A DNA stretch of 64,000 nt, taken from contig JACRCQ010000042.1 of assembly GCA_016218915.1 (NCBI GenBank), positions 62,001 to 126,000 on the forward strand, given 5' to 3'. The stretch comes from Deltaproteobacteria bacterium. Lineage in GTDB: Bacteria; Myxococcota_A; Polyangia; Polyangiales; Polyangiaceae. Below, piece after piece: positions 13,769 to 34,067 of this stretch (position 1 is the stretch's first letter; each line of letters begins with the position of its first letter). The notes under the pieces were generated by a model that saw only the letters and a program-made list of their open reading frames with translations, did not search any database and was not told where the DNA came from. The position numbers and the translations under genes were made by a program.

Positions 13769-16422
<2,654 letters not shown>

Positions 16423-16716
16423 CGTGCGGCTACTCCCATCGGAGCTGGCAGAGCGCAGCCGATCCATGCATCGGATCAGGGCTGGAGCTGCCGCTGAAAA
16501 GCCTCCAAGGGGTAGTCGAGCCGGGGTGTTGCTGCAATGCTCGCGGCCCCTGGAACGGGAAAGAAATGTGGCGCGCAGACCCCGGGAAAACAAGGGGATC
16601 TACCTGTGAAGGACCCCTTCACCGCCGCGGATGTCCCGCAGCGCCCGCAAGCCCGGTTTCGTGCCCGCTTCAAGCGGTCCGTGGCCCCCAGAACCTGCCG
16701 TGCTAAGCCGCCCCGC
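16423..16716. promoter_or_regulatory. Divergent intergenic region between gyrA and mazG
   Basis: 294 bases that must hold promoters for both directions. Frames from both genes run partly into it but lack protein-like composition. I see no clear operator or terminator. Confidence 0.4.
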
Positions 16717-18759: not shown

Positions 18760-19167
18760 CTACCGCTGTCGTCCTGCCAGCACACCCTGTACGGTGGAGG
18801 CGAGCGTGTCCGGGTCGTACGGCTTCTCGAGCACGCCGACTGCGCCGAGCGCCTGGGTCGCCTGCAGGATCCCGTCCGAGGCGTACCCGGTCACGAGCAT
18901 GACCTTGAGCGCTGGCCACTTCTCGTGCACGCGCTCGAGCACGGTCATCCCGTCCATGTCAGGCATCCGCATGTCGAGGATCACCAGATCGAACTTGCCC
19001 TGGACCTCGTCGATCATGCGAATCGCGTCGCGTCCCTCTGAAACCGGCGTCACGATGTAGCCGAGATCCGCAAGCACAATCTGCGTCATGCGCAGCAGCA
19101 TGGGATCGTCGTCGACGACGAGGATCGATGGTGGCTCGGCACTTGTAGGTTGGCTCGTATGGGTCAT
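18760..19167 (-). CDS. Single-domain response regulator
   Basis: 135 residues from ATG 19167; the frame is open upstream but not protein-like. The receiver fold has an acidic pocket (VVDDDP), phospho-acceptor Asp65 in ILDMRMPD, Thr in LVTGYAS and Lys in EKPYDPD. No output domain follows, so it acts through protein contacts or as a phosphorelay shuttle. It is convergent with rlmN (4 bases apart) and divergent from the Ser/Thr kinase gene, which may share its control region. Confidence 0.88.
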   Translation of the reverse strand: MTHTSQPTSAEPPSILVVDDDPMLLRMTQIVLADLGYIVTPVSEGRDAIRMIDEVQGKFDLVILDMRMPDMDGMTVLERVHEKWPALKVMLVTGYASDGILQATQALGAVGVLEKPYDPDTLASTVQGVLAGRQR

Positions 19168-19344
19168 GAACGGTCCTAGCGGCGCCTTCGACCACCCTTC
19201 CCTCGAAGCACCAGCTTGCCGCAACCTCGTCGCGAGCGCGAGAGAACATTTTTCTCCAGCGCCAATCCCCCTGGTTTTGTGCCCCGAACGGGCTTGATGC
19301 GTCCGAACTGCCCGAAACGGCTCTGCTGTGGTACCGAATAGCAG

Positions 19345-20214
19345 ATGGCTGACGCGGACGACACCAGAACTGGCGAGATGCTCGGAGGCCGATACAAGGT
19401 CGGCGCGCTGGTCGGAAAGGGTGGGCATGGCGAGGTCTACCGCGCCCGCGACACCGTCGATGGCCGAGAAGTTGCCGTCAAATTCCTGGCTGCACACCTG
19501 GCGCAGGACAACGACTATCGCGTGCGTCTCGCGCGTGAAGCGCGCGCCATGTCTTCGCTCAATGGCGTGGGCACGCTCGAGGTGATGGGAATCCTCGGTG
19601 CCGAGGACGGCACGCCGTGCCTGGTGATGGAGCTTCTGGAAGGGTGCGATCTCGCGGAAGCGATCGCATCACGCAACCGGCTTCGGGTCCGGTTCAACCT
19701 CGACGAAGTCGTGACGCTGTTCTCCAAGGTCGTGTCGACCCTGGAAGCGGTGCATGCGCTGGGAATCACGCACCGCGATCTGAAGCCGTCGAACATCTAC
19801 CTCGTGGGCCGCAAGATGCACGATCCGCGCATCATGGACTTTGGCCTCGCGAAAGTCTCCGACATGCAGCAGATCACGGCGGATCGAATGCTGGCCGGCT
19901 CGCCGTCCTATGTCGCGCCCGAGATCTGGATGAGGGGCGCGCGCAATGCGGACCACAGAGCCGACGTCTACTCGCTCGCAGTGGTGATCTTCGAGACGCT
20001 GACCGGAGACGTACCCATCCACCGCAAGAATCTCGGCGAGATGCTCATGGCGGTGACGCGACCTGGCAACATCCCGAGCCTTCAGAAGATCAGGCAGGAT
20101 CTCCCGGCGGACATTGACGACTGGTCGAAGCAGGCGTTCGCGATCAAGCCTGAGGAACGGTTCCAGTCGGTGGTGGGGATGTGGAGAGCGTTCCGGGCGA
20201 TCGTGGGCAAGTGA
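19345..20214 (+). CDS. Cytosolic Ser/Thr protein kinase (Hanks type)
   Basis: 289 residues, a kinase domain only, with no membrane segment or sensor domain. All catalytic elements are present: glycine loop GKGGHGEVYRA, the VAVK lysine, HRDLKPSN, the MDFGLAK metal motif, and VAPEI in the activation segment. Short stand-alone kinases are abundant in myxobacteria. The lack of a sensor suggests control by partner proteins; the divergent receiver protein is one candidate. Start chosen at the first ATG, about 24 residues ahead of the glycine loop. Confidence 0.9.
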   Translation: MADADDTRTGEMLGGRYKVGALVGKGGHGEVYRARDTVDGREVAVKFLAAHLAQDNDYRVRLAREARAMSSLNGVGTLEVMGILGAEDGTPCLVMELLEGCDLAEAIASRNRLRVRFNLDEVVTLFSKVVSTLEAVHALGITHRDLKPSNIYLVGRKMHDPRIMDFGLAKVSDMQQITADRMLAGSPSYVAPEIWMRGARNADHRADVYSLAVVIFETLTGDVPIHRKNLGEMLMAVTRPGNIPSLQKIRQDLPADIDDWSKQAFAIKPEERFQSVVGMWRAFRAIVGK

Positions 20215-24543: not shown

Positions 24544-25152
24544 GTGCCCATCGAACTGCCGGCTGTGAGAATCCTGATCGTCGATGATGACAAGGCCATC
24601 TGCGACTACATGCAGACGCTCTTGGAGCGCGACGGCTTCCAGGTAAAGACCATCAACGAACCCACCCTGGTGGAGGAAGAGGTACGGCAGGGGCACTACC
24701 ACCTCATCATCCTCGACCTGATGATGCCGAACATCGACGGCATCGAGCTGCTGGGGCGCATCCGGAAGATCGACAGCGACATCGCGGTCGTAATCTTCAC
24801 CGGCTATCCGAATCTGGAGACCGCCGTAGCCTCCATGAAGCTCGACGCGGTCGACTACGTGAAGAAGCCCTTCAACGTGGATGAGTTCCGCGAGGTGCTC
24901 GCCCGCGTGATGCGCAAGAAGGGGCTGAGCCGCACGCCGGAAGAGCAGCTGCACAAGGTGATCGGCGAGAGCATCCGCAACCTCCGCAAGGAGAAGGAGC
25001 TCACGCTCAAGCAGATGTCGCGTCGCACCGGGCTGAGCGTGTCGCTGCTCTCGCAGATCGAACGCGCCGAGTCCTCGGCGTCGCTGTCGTCGCTCTACAA
25101 GATCGCCGCAGCGCTCGACGTCAGAATCCAGAGCTTGTTCGGGGAGTACTGA
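24544..25152 (+). CDS. Response regulator with XRE-type helix-turn-helix output
   Basis: 202 residues from GTG 24544, placed by the GGAGGG site 5 bases upstream; the frame is open to 23710 but that part overlaps another operon. Receiver about 8-125 with Asp58 in ILDLMMPNIDG, Thr in FTGYP and Lys in VKKPFN. The output domain (about 140-200) is an HTH_3/XRE fold: LRKEKELTLKQMSRRTGLS, then SLLSQIERAESSASLSSL, as in phage repressors and antitoxins. Most response regulators use OmpR, NarL or Fis outputs, so this fusion is uncommon. No kinase gene is adjacent. Confidence 0.9.
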   Translation: MPIELPAVRILIVDDDKAICDYMQTLLERDGFQVKTINEPTLVEEEVRQGHYHLIILDLMMPNIDGIELLGRIRKIDSDIAVVIFTGYPNLETAVASMKLDAVDYVKKPFNVDEFREVLARVMRKKGLSRTPEEQLHKVIGESIRNLRKEKELTLKQMSRRTGLSVSLLSQIERAESSASLSSLYKIAAALDVRIQSLFGEY

Positions 25153-25225: not shown

Positions 25226-28200
25226 TCACGCGCTCTTGAGACGGCGCAGGGCGTCGCGTGCGAGCGTCTCGCCGTCGACCCATCCGATCGATCGTGACAG
25301 CGCCTTGGCAAACACCAGCGTCTCGCCTGCACCGGCCAGGTCTCCGAGCTTGACCTGGTAGGCACCGAGGTTGACCGCAATGCGCGCAGCAGCGCTGCGA
25401 TCGCCGGCGACACGAGCCGAAGCGAGCGCACGCTCTGCCTGCGCGGCGGCTGTCTTGAGGTCGCCCTCGCACGACGCGACATAGGCCAGGTTCGCCAGCA
25501 CGCGGGAAGCCGAGGCTTCGTCCGAGCGCGACATCGCGTGATCGAGCGCGCCTCCGAGCACGGCCCGGGCATCGGCGAAGCGGCGCATGCTCGCGCGAAG
25601 CCGCGCCAGGAACGCGGCGGCTTGCGACGTCCGAAGGCTGTCGGACATGCTCAGCCCTTCGTTCTCCTCGAAGATGCGAATGGCGAGCTCGTAGGCCTGC
25701 TCCGCGTGCTGCTCGGCTTCTGCCACGCGCCCAAGCTCTTGCAGGAGCGCAGCGACGTCGGTCTGCACCTCGAAGTGCGCCAGCGGATCGATCTTCCCGG
25801 TGGACGGCTCTGCAGCGCGCAGCAGCGCCTTGAGAGCGATCTCGGGGTCGCCTTGGGCGCGAGCCACGCGGGCGAAGATCCGGGCTCGCAGCCCGCTCGC
25901 CGAGACCGGGCCGATGCGCTCGAGCCGCGCCAGCGCGTCATTGGCGGCCTTGCCGTCCGCGGTCTGCAGCAGCGCCTCCACGTGATCGAGCCCCACCCGA
26001 AGGGCGTTCTGATCATCCTGCGCCGACTGGAATGCGTGGCTTGCGCGCTTGAGCAGTGCAGCCGCGGGGCGCGGCTCTCCGCGCTCGAGCAGATCGCGCG
26101 CAGCATGCTCGAAGTGCTCGGCCGCTGCCCGGTAGTCCCCGCACGCCTCGAACTGGGTCGCGATCACCTCGTAGGGCGCCCGCGCCGGATGCACGGCTGA
26201 CAGCCACTTCGCGATGAACCGATGGATGTCGCGTCGATCCCGCTCCGCCACCAGCTCTGCGATCAGATCCCGCACGCCTTCGTTGCGGAAGACCAGATGC
26301 TCGCCTTCCACACGCCCGAGGTTCGTGACCGCGCACTCTCGCAGCAGCACCGCCCGCTCGATGGACGGCGGCGCGAACTCCTCGAGCAGCGCCATCGGCG
26401 TGCGCACGCCTGCGAGCGCCGCGCACTGCAACCACCTCCGCGCGTCCTTGGGGAGCCGGCGCAGCGCAGTGTCCACCAGCGTGCGCGCGGATTCCTGGGA
26501 CGGCGCGGCGATCGGCTCGCCCTTGCGCTCTGCCGCGCTCACGAGCATGCCCTGCGCACAAAGGTCGAGCATCAGTGGCGAGCCCCGACATGCCTTCACC
26601 GCGGCATCGATCGCCTCCGGCGGGGCATCGAGCCCGGTCAACCGATCCTTGACGAGCGAGCGTGCGTGCTTGTCGTCGAGCGGGCCGATCGGAATGCGGG
26701 TTGCATTCGACGCCTTCCACTCGGGCCATGGCTCGCCGCGCGCAGTCACGATGACCGACACCGGATGACGCTGCGTCGATTCCATCAGGTCGAGCACGAA
26801 CGCGGCTGAGCCGGGATCGAGCGCGTCGGCGTCCTCCACGAACAGCACGCTGGGCACGGTCGCAAGCACGTGGCCGAAGAAGCTCCGCAGCGAGCTCGCT
26901 TCTTCCCGCTCCACGACGTCGAGGCTCACGGCCAGGCTCGAAGCACGCCCGGAGACGCGGTCGAGCAGGCGCTCGACGTCTTCCTCGGACAGTCGGACGC
27001 GCTCGCGAAGGTACTTTGCCACGCGCGCGATGCGCTTGGCGTCGTCACCGCGACGAATCCCGAGCATGTCGCGAGCAGCTTCGGTGAACGGCTCAAGGGG
27101 ACCGTGCAGCGCCCTGCGCCCCTCCACCCGGACCACGCCCACCGGACCGCCCCAGAGCCCGGCGATCACCTCGTCGAGAACCGCGGACTTGCCCATGCCC
27201 GCCTCACTCAACAGGATGATGACCGAGCCGTGGTTGGCTTCTTCGACCGGAGCGAGCGCTGCGGCACGAACCGCTTCGATGATCTCGGCGCGTCCGACGG
27301 CATAGGCGCGACGGGTCATGCCAGAGACGCTCATGTGCAGGGTGGACGGGAGCAGGCGAGAATCGCGTCGCGCACCAGGAGCGATCGATGCCGCCTCGGC
27401 CGAGGACTCCTTGCCGCGGGCCATGACGAGGGCTGCTGCCATCTCCTGGGCAGACTGGAAACGATCCGCAGGCGACTTGCGCAGCGCCTTGAGGATCACC
27501 TCCTCGATGCCGGGATCGATGTTGCGCTGCGGCGCGCGCACGTGCAGGGGCTCGGGCTCCTGCTCGAGGATCATGCGCTCGATGTCGATCGATGCTCCGG
27601 CCTCGAACACCGCAGTGCCGGAGTACTGCTCGTACAGGATCGCTCCCATCGAGTAGACATCGCTTCGCTCGTCCGGATCCTCGTCGCGCAAACGCTCCGG
27701 AGAGCTGTAGACGGGCGTGCCCAGGGTGGTGCCGCCCAAGGTGGGCCGGACCATGGATTCGGCCGCGAGGCTGCCAAGTCCGAAGTCCGCAATCTTGGGT
27801 CGAACCACACCGTCCGGAGTTGCGCCGATCACGATCGACTCCGGGCGAAGGTCGAGGTGCAGCACGCCCTGCTTGTGAGCTGAGGCGAGGCATTCGAGCG
27901 CCTGGATGCCGATGATCGTGACCTGGCCTGGGGGCAGCAGGCCGCGGCCATGCACGATCGCGCACAGATTGCGACCTTCGAAGGCCTCGGTCGCGACGTA
28001 GAGGAACGCGCCGAGCTCCATCTCGTGGCGCCCGGCAGAGAGGGTGCGCAGCACGCTGGTATGGGACAAGGGACGCACCGCGGTCACGCGCGGCACGAAG
28101 TCGTCGGCAAAGGACTGGATGCCTGCCAGATGCGGATGGACCATGCGCACGAGCACCGGCGAGCCGGTCTGCTGATCCACCGCGTGGTAGATGCGCGTCA

Positions 28201-28384
28201 GCGCATCGGCCCCTACCCGCTCCTTGACCTGGAATCGTCCTTCGAGCGTGATCCCCACCAGCAGCGGGGGGTTGACCGAGCGCAAGGGCATCGGGGCGCC
28301 GCAATGCGGGCAGAACCTCGCAATGGCTTCAGAAAGCCCCCCGCAGCTCGGGCATGCGGCGGCTATGGAAGGCACGTCGTTCAC
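25226..28384 (-). CDS. Zinc-ribbon / pseudokinase / AAA ATPase / TPR protein
   Basis: 1052 residues, starting at GTG 28384. Domains in order: zinc ribbon (C11, C14, C25, C28); kinase-like domain (about 48-320); AAA/STAND-like ATPase with Walker A SEAGMGKSAVLDE and Walker B VLFVEDADALD (about 375-620); then helical TPR-like repeats to the end. This is the layout of PknK-type regulators. The kinase domain keeps DFG (200-202) and the HxD Asp178, but the glycine loop reads VGADALTRI, the VAVK Lys is Arg80, and HRDLKPEN reads HLDLRPES. Phosphotransfer is therefore doubtful. It is convergent with the receiver-XRE gene. The ribosome site is weak, so the start is less certain. Confidence 0.8.
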   Translation of the reverse strand: MNDVPSIAAACPSCGGLSEAIARFCPHCGAPMPLRSVNPPLLVGITLEGRFQVKERVGADALTRIYHAVDQQTGSPVLVRMVHPHLAGIQSFADDFVPRVTAVRPLSHTSVLRTLSAGRHEMELGAFLYVATEAFEGRNLCAIVHGRGLLPPGQVTIIGIQALECLASAHKQGVLHLDLRPESIVIGATPDGVVRPKIADFGLGSLAAESMVRPTLGGTTLGTPVYSSPERLRDEDPDERSDVYSMGAILYEQYSGTAVFEAGASIDIERMILEQEPEPLHVRAPQRNIDPGIEEVILKALRKSPADRFQSAQEMAAALVMARGKESSAEAASIAPGARRDSRLLPSTLHMSVSGMTRRAYAVGRAEIIEAVRAAALAPVEEANHGSVIILLSEAGMGKSAVLDEVIAGLWGGPVGVVRVEGRRALHGPLEPFTEAARDMLGIRRGDDAKRIARVAKYLRERVRLSEEDVERLLDRVSGRASSLAVSLDVVEREEASSLRSFFGHVLATVPSVLFVEDADALDPGSAAFVLDLMESTQRHPVSVIVTARGEPWPEWKASNATRIPIGPLDDKHARSLVKDRLTGLDAPPEAIDAAVKACRGSPLMLDLCAQGMLVSAAERKGEPIAAPSQESARTLVDTALRRLPKDARRWLQCAALAGVRTPMALLEEFAPPSIERAVLLRECAVTNLGRVEGEHLVFRNEGVRDLIAELVAERDRRDIHRFIAKWLSAVHPARAPYEVIATQFEACGDYRAAAEHFEHAARDLLERGEPRPAAALLKRASHAFQSAQDDQNALRVGLDHVEALLQTADGKAANDALARLERIGPVSASGLRARIFARVARAQGDPEIALKALLRAAEPSTGKIDPLAHFEVQTDVAALLQELGRVAEAEQHAEQAYELAIRIFEENEGLSMSDSLRTSQAAAFLARLRASMRRFADARAVLGGALDHAMSRSDEASASRVLANLAYVASCEGDLKTAAAQAERALASARVAGDRSAAARIAVNLGAYQVKLGDLAGAGETLVFAKALSRSIGWVDGETLARDALRRLKSA

Positions 28385-28462: not shown

Positions 28463-29482
28463 TCATCCCTTGCGAAAAGCAGCGACCAGCCTCTCGCAAG
28501 CTGTGTAGGGATCGGTTTCCCGCCTCGACACGCTCCCGATCGCTTCTTCGAGCTGGTTGCCGATGTCGCGCACTGCAGCATCCACCAGCGCGTTGCGCAT
28601 CTCGTTCTCCATCTGCTCACGAAGACGCAGATGCCGTCGCTCCTGGCCGGCCTGCGTGTCCATCACCCACTTGCGATGCTCCTCGAGCCATCGCTCGGTC
28701 TCGTCGATCCCTTGGTTCTGTGTCGCAATGCAGCGCACGATCGGCGGTACCCAGGCTCCTGCCGAATCGACCCCGCCGGTCTCGCGTCGCATCGCAGCGC
28801 CAGAATGGCTTCCCACGCTCGTGAGCTGCCCGCCGCCCACCACCCGTCTGCCCAGCGCAACCATCAGCTCCAGATCCCGCATGGTCGCATCTGCGCCGTC
28901 CCGATCCGCCTTGTTGACCGAGAACACGTCCCCGCACTCCAATATGCCCGCTTTGGCAGCCTGGACGTCATCCCCAAGCCCGGGCGCCGCCACGATCAGC
29001 GTCGAGTGCGCGGTGCGCGTCACTTCCATCTCGTCCTGCCCTACACCCACGGTCTCGACCACCACCACGTCCGCGCCCCAGGCGTCGAGCACGCGCATCA
29101 CGTCGACCGCAGACCGGCTCAAACCTCCGAGCGCGCCGCGCGTCGCCAGCGATCGGATGAATACGTCGGGGTCCTCGAAGTGACGCTGCATCCGGATGCG
29201 GTCGCCCAGGATCGCGCCGCCGGAAAAAGGGCTGGTGGGATCGATCGCGATCACGCCAACGCGCTTGCCTTGCGCGCGCCACAGCTCCACGAGCCGATCC
29301 GTGACCGTGCTCTTGCCAGCGCCCGGATTTCCGGTGACGCCAACGATCCACGCATGGCCTGTGTGCGGAAACAGCTCCTTGAGCAGGTCGAGGTACCCAT
29401 CGACCCGGTCGTCGACCAGGCGACACGCCCTTGCCACGCCTCTCACGTCGCGCTGAAGAACCCGCTGAGCGATCGAATGCAC
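28463..29482 (-). CDS. meaB: MeaB/ArgK-family G3E GTPase
   Basis: 339 residues. MeaB protects adenosylcobalamin-dependent methylmalonyl-CoA mutase and gates cofactor loading. Motifs: Walker A GNPGAGKST (about residue 51), the switch region DPTSPFSGGAILGDR, the ETVGVGQDE switch II, and the NKAD guanine-specificity motif. The C-terminal helices form the dimerisation arm. No mutase subunit lies next to it here. It is probably in one transcript with the basic protein upstream (67-base gap). Confidence 0.92.
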   Translation of the reverse strand: MHSIAQRVLQRDVRGVARACRLVDDRVDGYLDLLKELFPHTGHAWIVGVTGNPGAGKSTVTDRLVELWRAQGKRVGVIAIDPTSPFSGGAILGDRIRMQRHFEDPDVFIRSLATRGALGGLSRSAVDVMRVLDAWGADVVVVETVGVGQDEMEVTRTAHSTLIVAAPGLGDDVQAAKAGILECGDVFSVNKADRDGADATMRDLELMVALGRRVVGGGQLTSVGSHSGAAMRRETGGVDSAGAWVPPIVRCIATQNQGIDETERWLEEHRKWVMDTQAGQERRHLRLREQMENEMRNALVDAAVRDIGNQLEEAIGSVSRRETDPYTACERLVAAFRKG

Positions 29483-32346: not shown

Positions 32347-33768
32347 TCAGTCCGTGATCGACCCGCCCTTCTTCAGCCCGTAGCGCTGGATCAGGCGGTG
32401 CAGGTACATGCGATCGAGCCCTGCCTTGCGCGACGCCATGCTCACGTTTCCTGCGGACCACTGGAGCAGCGCGGTCAGGTACTCGCGCTCGAACTCGGAG
32501 ATCACCTGATCCTTGGCCTCCTTGAAGGACACCTCGAGATTCACCGCGGTCTGCGCTGGCGGGGCGATGTCCGGGCTCGACGGCTGACGACGCGAAGCTG
32601 GCGGAGCCGTCTCGAGCACCACCGCACGCTCGATGTAGTTCCTCAGCTCGCGCACGTTGCCTGGCCAGTCGTAGCGCGCCATCTCTGCCAGCACCTCGGG
32701 CGTGAAGAGGCTCAAGCGATCGAGCGCATCGAGCTGACGAAGGAAGTGGTGCACCAGGGTGGTGAGATCCTCGAGGTGCTCGCGCAACGGAGGCACGCGC
32801 ACGGTCACGACCGACAGCCGGAAGTACAGGTCCTCACGGAAGCGACCGTGATTGACCTCTCGCTCGAGCCTGCGGTTGGTGGCTGCGATCAGCCGGACGT
32901 CCACCTTGCGCGCGCGGTTCTCCCCTACCCTGCGGATCTCGCGCGATTCGATCGCGCGCAGCAGCTTGGGCTGCATCTCGAGCGGCATCTCCCCGATCTC
33001 GTCGAGGAACACCGTGCCGCCATCGGCTGCCTCGAACGCGCCCTGGCGATCCCGATCCGCGCTCGTGAACGAGCCCCGGATGTGCCCGAACAGCTCGCTC
33101 TCGATCAGACTTGGTGAGACAGCGCCGCAGTCCACGATCACGAAGGGCTTGTCTGCACGCGATCCCCTGCGAACCACCTCGGTGGCGATGATCTCCTTGC
33201 CTGTGCCGCTCTCGCCTTCGATCAGCACGGTCGCATCGGTTCGGGCAACGCGATCGAGCACTCCGAACAAGCGTCGCATGGCGAGCGACGAGCCGATCAG
33301 CGCGCCGAAGCTGGGCCACACCGGTACGTCGGCCTGGCTCACAGACCCTCGCTCCGAGACCCGCACCACAGAATCGCCCAGGCTGATCCGACACTCGGGC
33401 AGCGGCAGGTCAGCGTCGCGCACGCGGACGGCTCCGACCCGCGTGCCGTTCAGAGAGCCGGTATCTGCGATGCGCCAGGTCCCGCCTTCGCGCCACAGGC
33501 GGCAATGGAAGCTCGAGATGTGCTTGTCATCGAGCACCAGGTCATTGCCGGAGTGCGAGCCAATCCTGCACAGGTCGCTGTCCAGGACCACTTCGCGCCC
33601 GGTTTCCTTGCCCCCTTCGCGTTCGACCACGAGCTCGATGCGCGGAATCGGTACGCTGTCGGTGTAACGAGGGATGGTACCTGAGGGGCGACGGGGCGGG
33701 CCCAGGTCCGGAAGCGGGGGGGAGGAAGGAGGGCGAGGGGGCACGGACGACTTCACGTGGGGTTGCAT
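32347..33768 (-). CDS. FHA-domain AAA+ enhancer-binding-type regulator with Fis HTH
   Basis: 473 residues. FHA domain about 45-135 with phosphothreonine-binding residues (RIGS, SSFH, SLNGT). AAA+ domain about 155-385 with Walker A GESGTGKE (185-192) and GGTVFLDE Walker B. C-terminal Fis-type HTH ([19 protein letters not shown]). FHA input suggests control by a Ser/Thr kinase. The sigma54-contact loop, normally GAFTGA, reads GSFTSA (232-237), so transcription activation through sigma54 is uncertain. Start ATG 33768; the frame extends to 33846. A perfect palindrome lies just upstream. Confidence 0.88.
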
Positions 33769-33784
33769 ACCATGGACGCGGGGG

Positions 33785-33802
33785 TGATGCCTGCAGGCAT
33801 CA
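33785..33802. promoter_or_regulatory. 18-bp perfect palindrome upstream of the FHA regulator
   Basis: TGATGCCTGCAGGCATCA sits 16 bases before the FHA regulator's ATG, in the divergent region shared with the small secreted protein. A symmetric site there could be an operator for autoregulation, or a hairpin in the leader RNA. Confidence 0.5.
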
Positions 33803-34067
33803 GGTGCGGTCTCACTGAGCAGCCTGCAAGCGGGCGGAGCAACCAATCAACCTGGGAAATACCGCTGGACTTCCGGGATGCCGCACTGCGCGATCCGTGC
33901 GGAACGACTCTTGTATTGGATGAGACCGTGGACGGGCGCGAGCAAAGTCGATACAGTTACGTGGGGGCTTTTTTCTCTGCAAGCGGTCCGGCTCCTGAGG
34001 CGTTGTCGAGATGAAACATGGTGGCGAGCACGCGAGCGAGAATCACGATGGCCGAAAGGGGTCGGCC

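Follow-up and report, generated by a model that had tools for sequence, protein, structure and literature searches.

A 64,000-nucleotide stretch of the genome of a soil myxobacterium of the family Polyangiaceae (contig JACRCQ010000042.1 of assembly GCA_016218915.1, positions 62,001 to 126,000; hereafter the window, whose own numbering we use throughout) encodes a protein in which a kinase fold that has lost catalytic residues is followed by an ATPase and helical repeats, and the locus raises the question of what such a protein does if its kinase part no longer phosphorylates. The open reading frame (ORF) at 25226–28384, on the minus strand like all features of the protein given below, is complete, begins with GTG and encodes 1,052 aa. 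From N to C terminus it comprises a zinc ribbon, a kinase fold, an AAA-type (NOD-type) ATPase, and tetratricopeptide repeats (TPRs), an architecture on which the ORF and Pfam agree with a preliminary description made from the sequence alone. The Pkinase model (PF00069) matches residues 51–313 (27446–28234; e value 2.5e-25, 89.8 bits against a cut-off of 31.7), AAA_16 matches residues 363–545 (26750–27298; e value 5.7e-9), and TPR_12 matches in three stretches, the best of which (residues 961–1019) equals its cut-off at 30.1 bits. The N-terminal Zn_ribbon_3 match (e value 5.4e-4) is under its cut-off, and we place the ribbon at residues 10–32 (28289–28357) on this match together with cysteine conservation: Cys 11, 14, 25, and 28 are invariant across 20 active relatives in alignment A3, and they are absent from the orthologue of genome G006. 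The top NCBIfam match is TOMM_kin_cyc with 178.6 bits, far under its cut-off of 705.75.

A profile of the ATPase-TPR part was used to collect orthologues. Among 108 Polyangiaceae genomes, six matched it with 965–1052 bits and the next match in the family scored 141 bits; over 317 genomes of the class there were still six with at least 965 bits, and next in line came three genomes from a different family (f5) with 289–326 bits. One of the six is the window's own genome (G000). The other complete orthologues, from G023, G016, and G006, are 51%, 44%, and 35% identical to the window protein, respectively, and contain no internal stops. The G015 orthologue is distributed between two contigs and its kinase part breaks off after 243 residues, and the G036 orthologue has no kinase part because its contig ends there. 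The readable set thus consists of five kinase domains, which we list in the order window, G023, G016, G006, and G015, and six ATPase parts. We rejected a sequencing error or a pseudogene as the origin of the lost residues, because the three other complete orthologues are free of stops and show the same residue losses. Two further loci in the own genome align with the kinase region alone at 23–27% identity and were not used.

The best solved relative by sequence is PknB from Mycobacterium tuberculosis (e value 9.1e-36). Its alignment with the window protein puts Arg80 (28145–28147) on the β3 ATP-binding Lys, as the preliminary description had proposed for the Lys of its VAVK motif, and Arg99 (28088–28090) on the αC Glu. 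The catalytic loop HLDLRPES (residues 176–183; 27836–27859), in which Asp178 is kept and Asn183 is replaced by Ser, and DFG (residues 200–202; 27779–27787) read exactly as had been written. The claim that there is no glycine loop is almost correct: in the degenerate loop GADALT (residues 58–63; 28196–28213) the second and third Gly are replaced by Asp60 and Thr63, but the first, Gly58, is kept. Across the five orthologous kinase domains the β3 Lys position is occupied by R, R, R, E, and R, and the αC Glu position by R, A, A, A, and A, so that neither residue occurs in any of them; the second loop Gly is likewise lost in all five (D, D, D, T, and D), and the third position reads T, G, G, A, and A. 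The catalytic-loop Asn is S, S, N, N, and C, and the DFG position reads DFG, DFG, DCV, GFG, and NHV, which means that the motif is altered in three of the five and its Asp is lost in two (Gly in G006, Asn in G015). As a result, the metal-binding pair of Asn and DFG is complete in none: the window protein and G023 lack the Asn, G016 and G006 lack DFG, and G015 lacks both.

A catalytic Lys aligned elsewhere, which the preliminary description had named as evidence that would overturn its assignment of a pseudokinase, was looked for in the orthologue alignment, and no substitute Lys is shared by at least four of the five N-lobes; relocation of the Lys was therefore rejected. The glycine-loop position at which WNK kinases place their Lys holds T, G, G, A, and A in the five orthologues. 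The fold itself is predicted to be present: an AlphaFold2 (AF2) model of the first 350 residues (pLDDT 87.0, pTM 0.81) is a bilobal kinase fold with PknB and PknA as best fold matches, and PknB 6b2p was aligned with TMt 0.90. With a Pfam score over the cut-off in addition, the domain belongs to the protein kinase fold; it has the HxD Asp of an active Hanks-type Ser/Thr kinase without the Lys and Glu, and under the definition of a pseudokinase as a kinase that has lost at least one of the Lys, HRD Asp, and DFG Asp it qualifies through the Lys, which is missing five times out of five. The assignment of a pseudokinase is thus upheld, and that the kinase part looks non-catalytic is strongly supported by these sequence comparisons.

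To compare the losses with the variation that is usual among this genome's numerous kinases (152 kinase matches in 9.2 Mb), we took 90 picks consisting of the 30 best rows and 60 later rows, a sample in which the weakest matches are under-represented and 89 picks are distinct (L159 and L193 are the same domain). The Lys is present in 89 of these picks (the other having a gap), which corresponds to 88 of the 89 distinct domains, the Glu in 88, the HxD Asp in 90, and the DFG Asp in 89. The window protein is not among the best 150 of the 152 matches, the lowest of which listed has 104.4 bits as against its own Pfam score of 89.8. Ordinary variation was rejected on this control, and since Lys and Glu are lost in five of five orthologues while 89 of 90 picks have the Lys, the losses are not due to chance. 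The Lys, Glu, both Asp, and Asn are all present in 20 of 20 Polyangiaceae relatives with a zinc ribbon and a kinase (loci L011–L034 minus L011, L019, L025, and L032) and in three of three f5 relatives; they are also intact in four of four orthologues of a small kinase described later and in L145 and L128, two kinases near the regulator gene described later, in other genomes. A motif check that covered all 24 loci L011–L034, including the four unaligned ones, found HRDLKPEN, VxxK, and DxG in each of them. An N-terminal ribbon and a second ribbon after the kinase are each present in 23 of the 24, and a Walker A motif C-terminal to the kinase in 20 (missing in L020, L022, L031, and L033). As a separate observation, the own-genome kinase L238 (G000:C31:16001–16669) keeps its Lys and has GFG for DFG and His for the Asn; its sequence makes it a possible second pseudokinase or atypical kinase of this genome.

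A maximum-likelihood tree was built from 80 kinase rows, namely 45 of the 90 own-genome picks, the 20 zinc-ribbon relatives, the four small-kinase orthologues, L145, L128, the five pseudokinases, the three f5 kinases, and one reference. The five pseudokinases form one clade (100/99), the intact f5 kinases are its sister (100/98), and both are nested in a group with the zinc-ribbon relatives (98/82). The stem of the pseudokinase clade has 0.81 changes per column versus 0.41 for f5, and the G006 pseudokinase forms a long branch (1.7). The simplest reading of this topology is that catalysis was lost once, before the five orthologues diverged, with further change afterward.

The ATPase part appears to be intact. 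The GKS/GKT core of Walker A (SEAGMGKS, residues 393–400; 27185–27208) and Asp518 of Walker B (VLFVED, residues 513–518; 26831–26848) are found in all six orthologues, the first Gly of Walker A being Ser in the window protein only. A GxP motif (GSP, residues 601–603; 26576–26584), which we take to be typical of STAND ATPases, is kept in five of the six, with Arg for Gly in G006. An AF2 model of residues 345–1052 built on nine sequences (pLDDT 87.3, pTM 0.80) consists of a P-loop domain, helices that would form a helical lid, a winged-helix-like region, and a long TPR superhelix. The winged helix is predicted at residues 646–699 (26288–26449) from the secondary structure of the model, inside the range aligned with Apaf-1, and residues 704–1052 (25229–26275) form an arm/TPR superhelix that is the putative sensor. 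Foldseek ranked 6mfv, a STAND protein whose sensor consists of TPRs, first (e value 1.8e-16), and VIA-align gave a Z of 22.9 for Apaf-1 (397 residues aligned, root mean square deviation [rmsd] 6.8), 22.0 for the NB-ARC of NRC1 (300 aligned, rmsd 3.7), 21.6 for 6mfv (578 aligned, rmsd 9.1), and 21.2 for chain C of 8bob, a maltose-system complex in which this chain is presumably MalT (375 aligned, rmsd 5.1). Walker A and B are thus present in the sequences, and the succession of nucleotide-binding domain (NBD), helical domain, winged helix, and sensor repeats is present in the predicted model, so that a STAND-type ATP/ADP switch, apparently intact, is well supported. The preliminary description had seen the protein as a signal-integration scaffold rather than an enzyme; this fits a kinase part that looks non-catalytic and does not fit an ATPase part with Walker A/B, GxP, and a predicted winged helix and TPR sensor. 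A STAND-type switch with a pseudokinase as predicted effector domain is the better description.

In STAND proteins, binding of an inducer shifts the protein from a closed, ADP-bound to an open, ATP-bound form, after which it multimerizes, and PknK is named among the STAND kinases (PMC4381067); the response regulators PrrA and MtrA are binding partners and substrates of PknK (PMC9045387). Because the catalytic residues are lost and the module is nevertheless conserved on an apparently intact ATP switch, the protein probably passes on its signal through partner binding and not through phosphorylation of the partners. We consider it likely that it is a PknK-type STAND switch, probably cytoplasmic, whose effector kinase became a pseudokinase and whose partner is docked or regulated instead of phosphorylated. 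The TPR superhelix would sense a ligand or a protein, sensing would move the NOD from the closed/ADP to the open/ATP state and the protein would multimerize, both by analogy with MalT and Apaf-1, and the clustered pseudokinase and zinc-ribbon modules would then dock and regulate the partner. With catalysis gone the output would have to be docking, that is, recruitment or allosteric setting of the partner. The most likely candidates are a convergently encoded receiver-HTH (helix-turn-helix) regulator and/or a small intact kinase encoded a few genes away, which could be bound through kinase–kinase interfaces. Within the pseudokinase, Asp60 and Arg80, which change together across the five sequences (D/R in four, T/E in G006), may be joined by a salt bridge that would hold the glycine loop down on the nucleotide site.

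The regulator gene (24544–25152, plus strand), identified with Pfam and by neighborhood comparison, encodes a receiver and a Cro/C1-type HTH domain and ends 73 bp from the pseudokinase gene. The two genes are tail-to-tail in four of the six genomes (G000, G016, G015, and G036). In G006 they are 4.8 kb apart on the same strand with a subtilase-like gene between them, and in G023 both lie at contig ends, which is compatible with adjacency. The small Ser/Thr kinase (19345–20214, plus strand; 289 aa), intact by residue alignment, lies beside a gene for a receiver-domain protein (18760–19497, minus strand). Its orthologues with at least 394 bits occur in four of 106 family genomes, all four of which have the pseudokinase; the gene is near the pseudokinase gene in the window, G016, and G015, and in G023 it is beside the regulator gene on a separate contig. 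Neither of the two remaining pseudokinase genomes has a match with at least 394 bits, and the 242-bit match in G036 is of a level also seen in three genomes that lack the pseudokinase. In genome G047, the position that the pseudokinase has in the window is taken by an intact kinase (L145, 8662–10368, minus strand), encoded tail-to-tail with the regulator.

Several points weigh against the proposed docking switch. The HxD Asp is retained in all five orthologues and DFG is intact in the window protein and G023, which would allow residual or non-phosphotransfer activity, and DYD pseudokinases with the same Lys-to-Arg exchange and loss of the Glu have been modelled with ATP (PMC12599244). The switch and oligomerization steps rest on analogy with MalT and Apaf-1, and the C-terminal part matches unrelated TPR proteins (LGN and Rap kinds) about equally well, as is usual for repeats, so that support for STAND comes only from the matches that span the NBD to the winged helix. 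As for the partners, the regulator is a core gene present in 98 of 106 family genomes (66–93% identity outside the own genome), most of which lack the pseudokinase; it therefore works without the pseudokinase, and its candidacy as a specific partner is weakened. In 20 genomes with the regulator and without the pseudokinase, the surroundings of 9–18 kb share no other window gene (14 tested) except kinase-like ORFs, one of which lies near the regulator in five of the 20. At the density of kinase genes in the own genome, chance alone would place one nearby, and because the four pseudokinases that co-occur with the small kinase form one clade in the tree and the two other pseudokinase genomes lack it, shared ancestry also explains this link.

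A further reading, which we regard as unlikely, is a bacterial switch resembling nucleotide-binding leucine-rich repeat (NLR) proteins, in which an ATP-gated STAND oligomer would control the nearby receiver-HTH regulator and/or the intact kinase in trans, with the dead kinase serving for docking or as a decoy. Plant ZAR1 acts together with pseudokinases that are separate proteins, ZED1 among them (PMC6634424), and if this reading were true the protein would be, in a parallel that is our own, a cis-fused bacterial counterpart of ZAR1.

The retained HxD Asp, the two intact DFG motifs and the DYD models also speak for an active atypical kinase, in which Arg80 would replace the Lys and Asp178 and Asp200 would bind Mg-ATP, as modelled for DYD, or in which the fold would carry out a different kind of nucleotide transfer, as in SelO or SidJ; new activities have moreover been found in other bacterial pseudokinases. 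By analogy, ATP binding by the pocket is possible. Activity is nonetheless quite unlikely, given the replaced DFG Asp of G006 and G015 and the DCV of G016, Ser or Cys at the Asn183 position in three of five, including both proteins with an intact DFG, the loss of the second loop Gly in all five, and the lack of a Lys shared by at least four of the five N-lobes.

Improbable, too, is a kinase domain that is a decaying, functionless vestige on a protein of which only the STAND ATPase-TPR part matters. Such decay would account for the long stem of the pseudokinase clade and for the missing ribbon cysteines of G006, but the N-terminal part, with 54%, 39%, 33%, and 41% identity to the window protein in G023, G016, G006, and G015, is conserved to roughly the same degree as the C-terminal part (50%, 45%, 35%, and 40%), which argues against a mere vestige: the kinase part drifts no faster than the rest of the protein. 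Its fold is predicted to be intact, the complete orthologues are free of stops, and residues specific to the clade are kept: Arg56 is found in all five pseudokinases, the 20 active rows of A3 having Leu, and the pair Asp60/Arg80 is found in four and is jointly swapped to Thr/Glu in G006. 

A role in anti-phage defence, as a STAND (Avs-like) or kinase protein, which the patchy distribution (six of 108 family genomes), the STAND architecture with Avs3 at Foldseek rank 17, and matches of PADLOC PD-T4-6-type kinase models to the kinase domain (best e value 3.1e-53) might suggest, is very improbable, because among the 25 of 31 PADLOC matches listed the best stretches are confined to residues 21–364, the kinase part, with none extending beyond it, and the ordinary kinase at 19345 outscores the window protein on the top models, so that the matches look generic, and because the neighboring genes (gyrA, mazG, rlmN, meaB, and kup) are housekeeping genes.

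The proposed STAND switch with a pseudokinase effector shares features with several known systems. PknK of M. tuberculosis likewise joins a kinase effector to a STAND ATPase in one protein and acts on response regulators (PMC9045387, PMC4381067). Compared by description, however, PknK is active and autophosphorylating, whereas the window protein lacks the Lys, the Glu, and the larger part of the glycine loop and carries a zinc ribbon at its N terminus; with these catalytic residues missing it is not a PknK orthologue in the sense of an active kinase with a STAND ATPase. MalT, PH0952, and Apaf-1 share the predicted order of NBD, helical domain, and winged helix followed by an arm/TPR superhelix, as well as Walker A/B and GxP. 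MalT/Apaf-1-type effectors are DNA-binding or CARD domains, unlike the pseudokinase with a zinc ribbon found here. Closer to hand, Polyangiaceae proteins with a zinc ribbon, a kinase, a second zinc ribbon, and an ATPase (L002 = G000:C2:28266–29204; L011–L034) share the succession of N-terminal Cys ribbon, kinase, and Walker A, but differ in their intact catalytic residues (20 of 20) and their second ribbon (in 23 of 24 loci). The f5 proteins (G158, G157, and G155) are closest by both the kinase tree and the ATPase-TPR profile, and differ in an intact kinase in all three and, by Pfam on one of the three, in a second zinc ribbon and an inserted stretch. In these proteins (L091, L092, and L093; open frames of 1309–1355 aa) the kinase is followed by the zinc ribbon, a stretch of ~200 aa, AAA_16, and TPRs; by eye the stretch is cyclase-like, and Pfam, on L091 only, lists nothing there.

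Bacterial pseudokinases are largely unexplored by experiment (PMC12599244). The DYD pseudokinases treated in that source resemble the window protein in the exchange of the β3 Lys for Arg and the loss of the αC Glu; unlike the window family with its STAND partner domain, they are membrane-associated, occur in actinobacteria and firmicutes, and carry the DYD motif (PMC12599244), which none of the five orthologues has in place of DFG. A term search of the same source found no Myxo, AAA, TPR, zinc, PknK, or STAND. In Myxococcus xanthus, 11 of 99 Ser/Thr protein kinases are pseudokinases, defined by the absence of at least one of the three catalytic residues (PMC6791715); by count and definition only, these are likened to the window family as myxobacterial kinases lacking one or more catalytic residues. 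Myxobacterial pseudokinases and STAND kinases are thus already known, and a literature search at the level of titles and the starts of abstracts found no bacterial STAND protein with a pseudokinase described. As far as such searches show, the novelty lies in the fusion of a conserved pseudokinase to a STAND module that appears to be intact, in a family whose sister proteins are intact. With sister kinases of comparable domain order that are intact, an ATP switch that is apparently so, and candidate partners adjoining, the family lends itself to a clean test of how a signalling kinase can lose catalysis yet keep a job, and of whether docking of a pseudokinase can serve as the output of a STAND switch.

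Among the other genes of the window, meaB, which encodes the methylmalonyl-CoA mutase-associated GTPase (28463–29482, minus strand; identified with Pfam/NCBIfam), is directly upstream of the pseudokinase gene. It is adjacent and on the same strand in G000, G023, and G015 and lies 3.9 kb away in G016. GyrA is encoded at 13771–16593, and a gene at 32347–33846 on the minus strand encodes an FHA domain and a sigma-54 activator, possibly a phospho-signalling protein.

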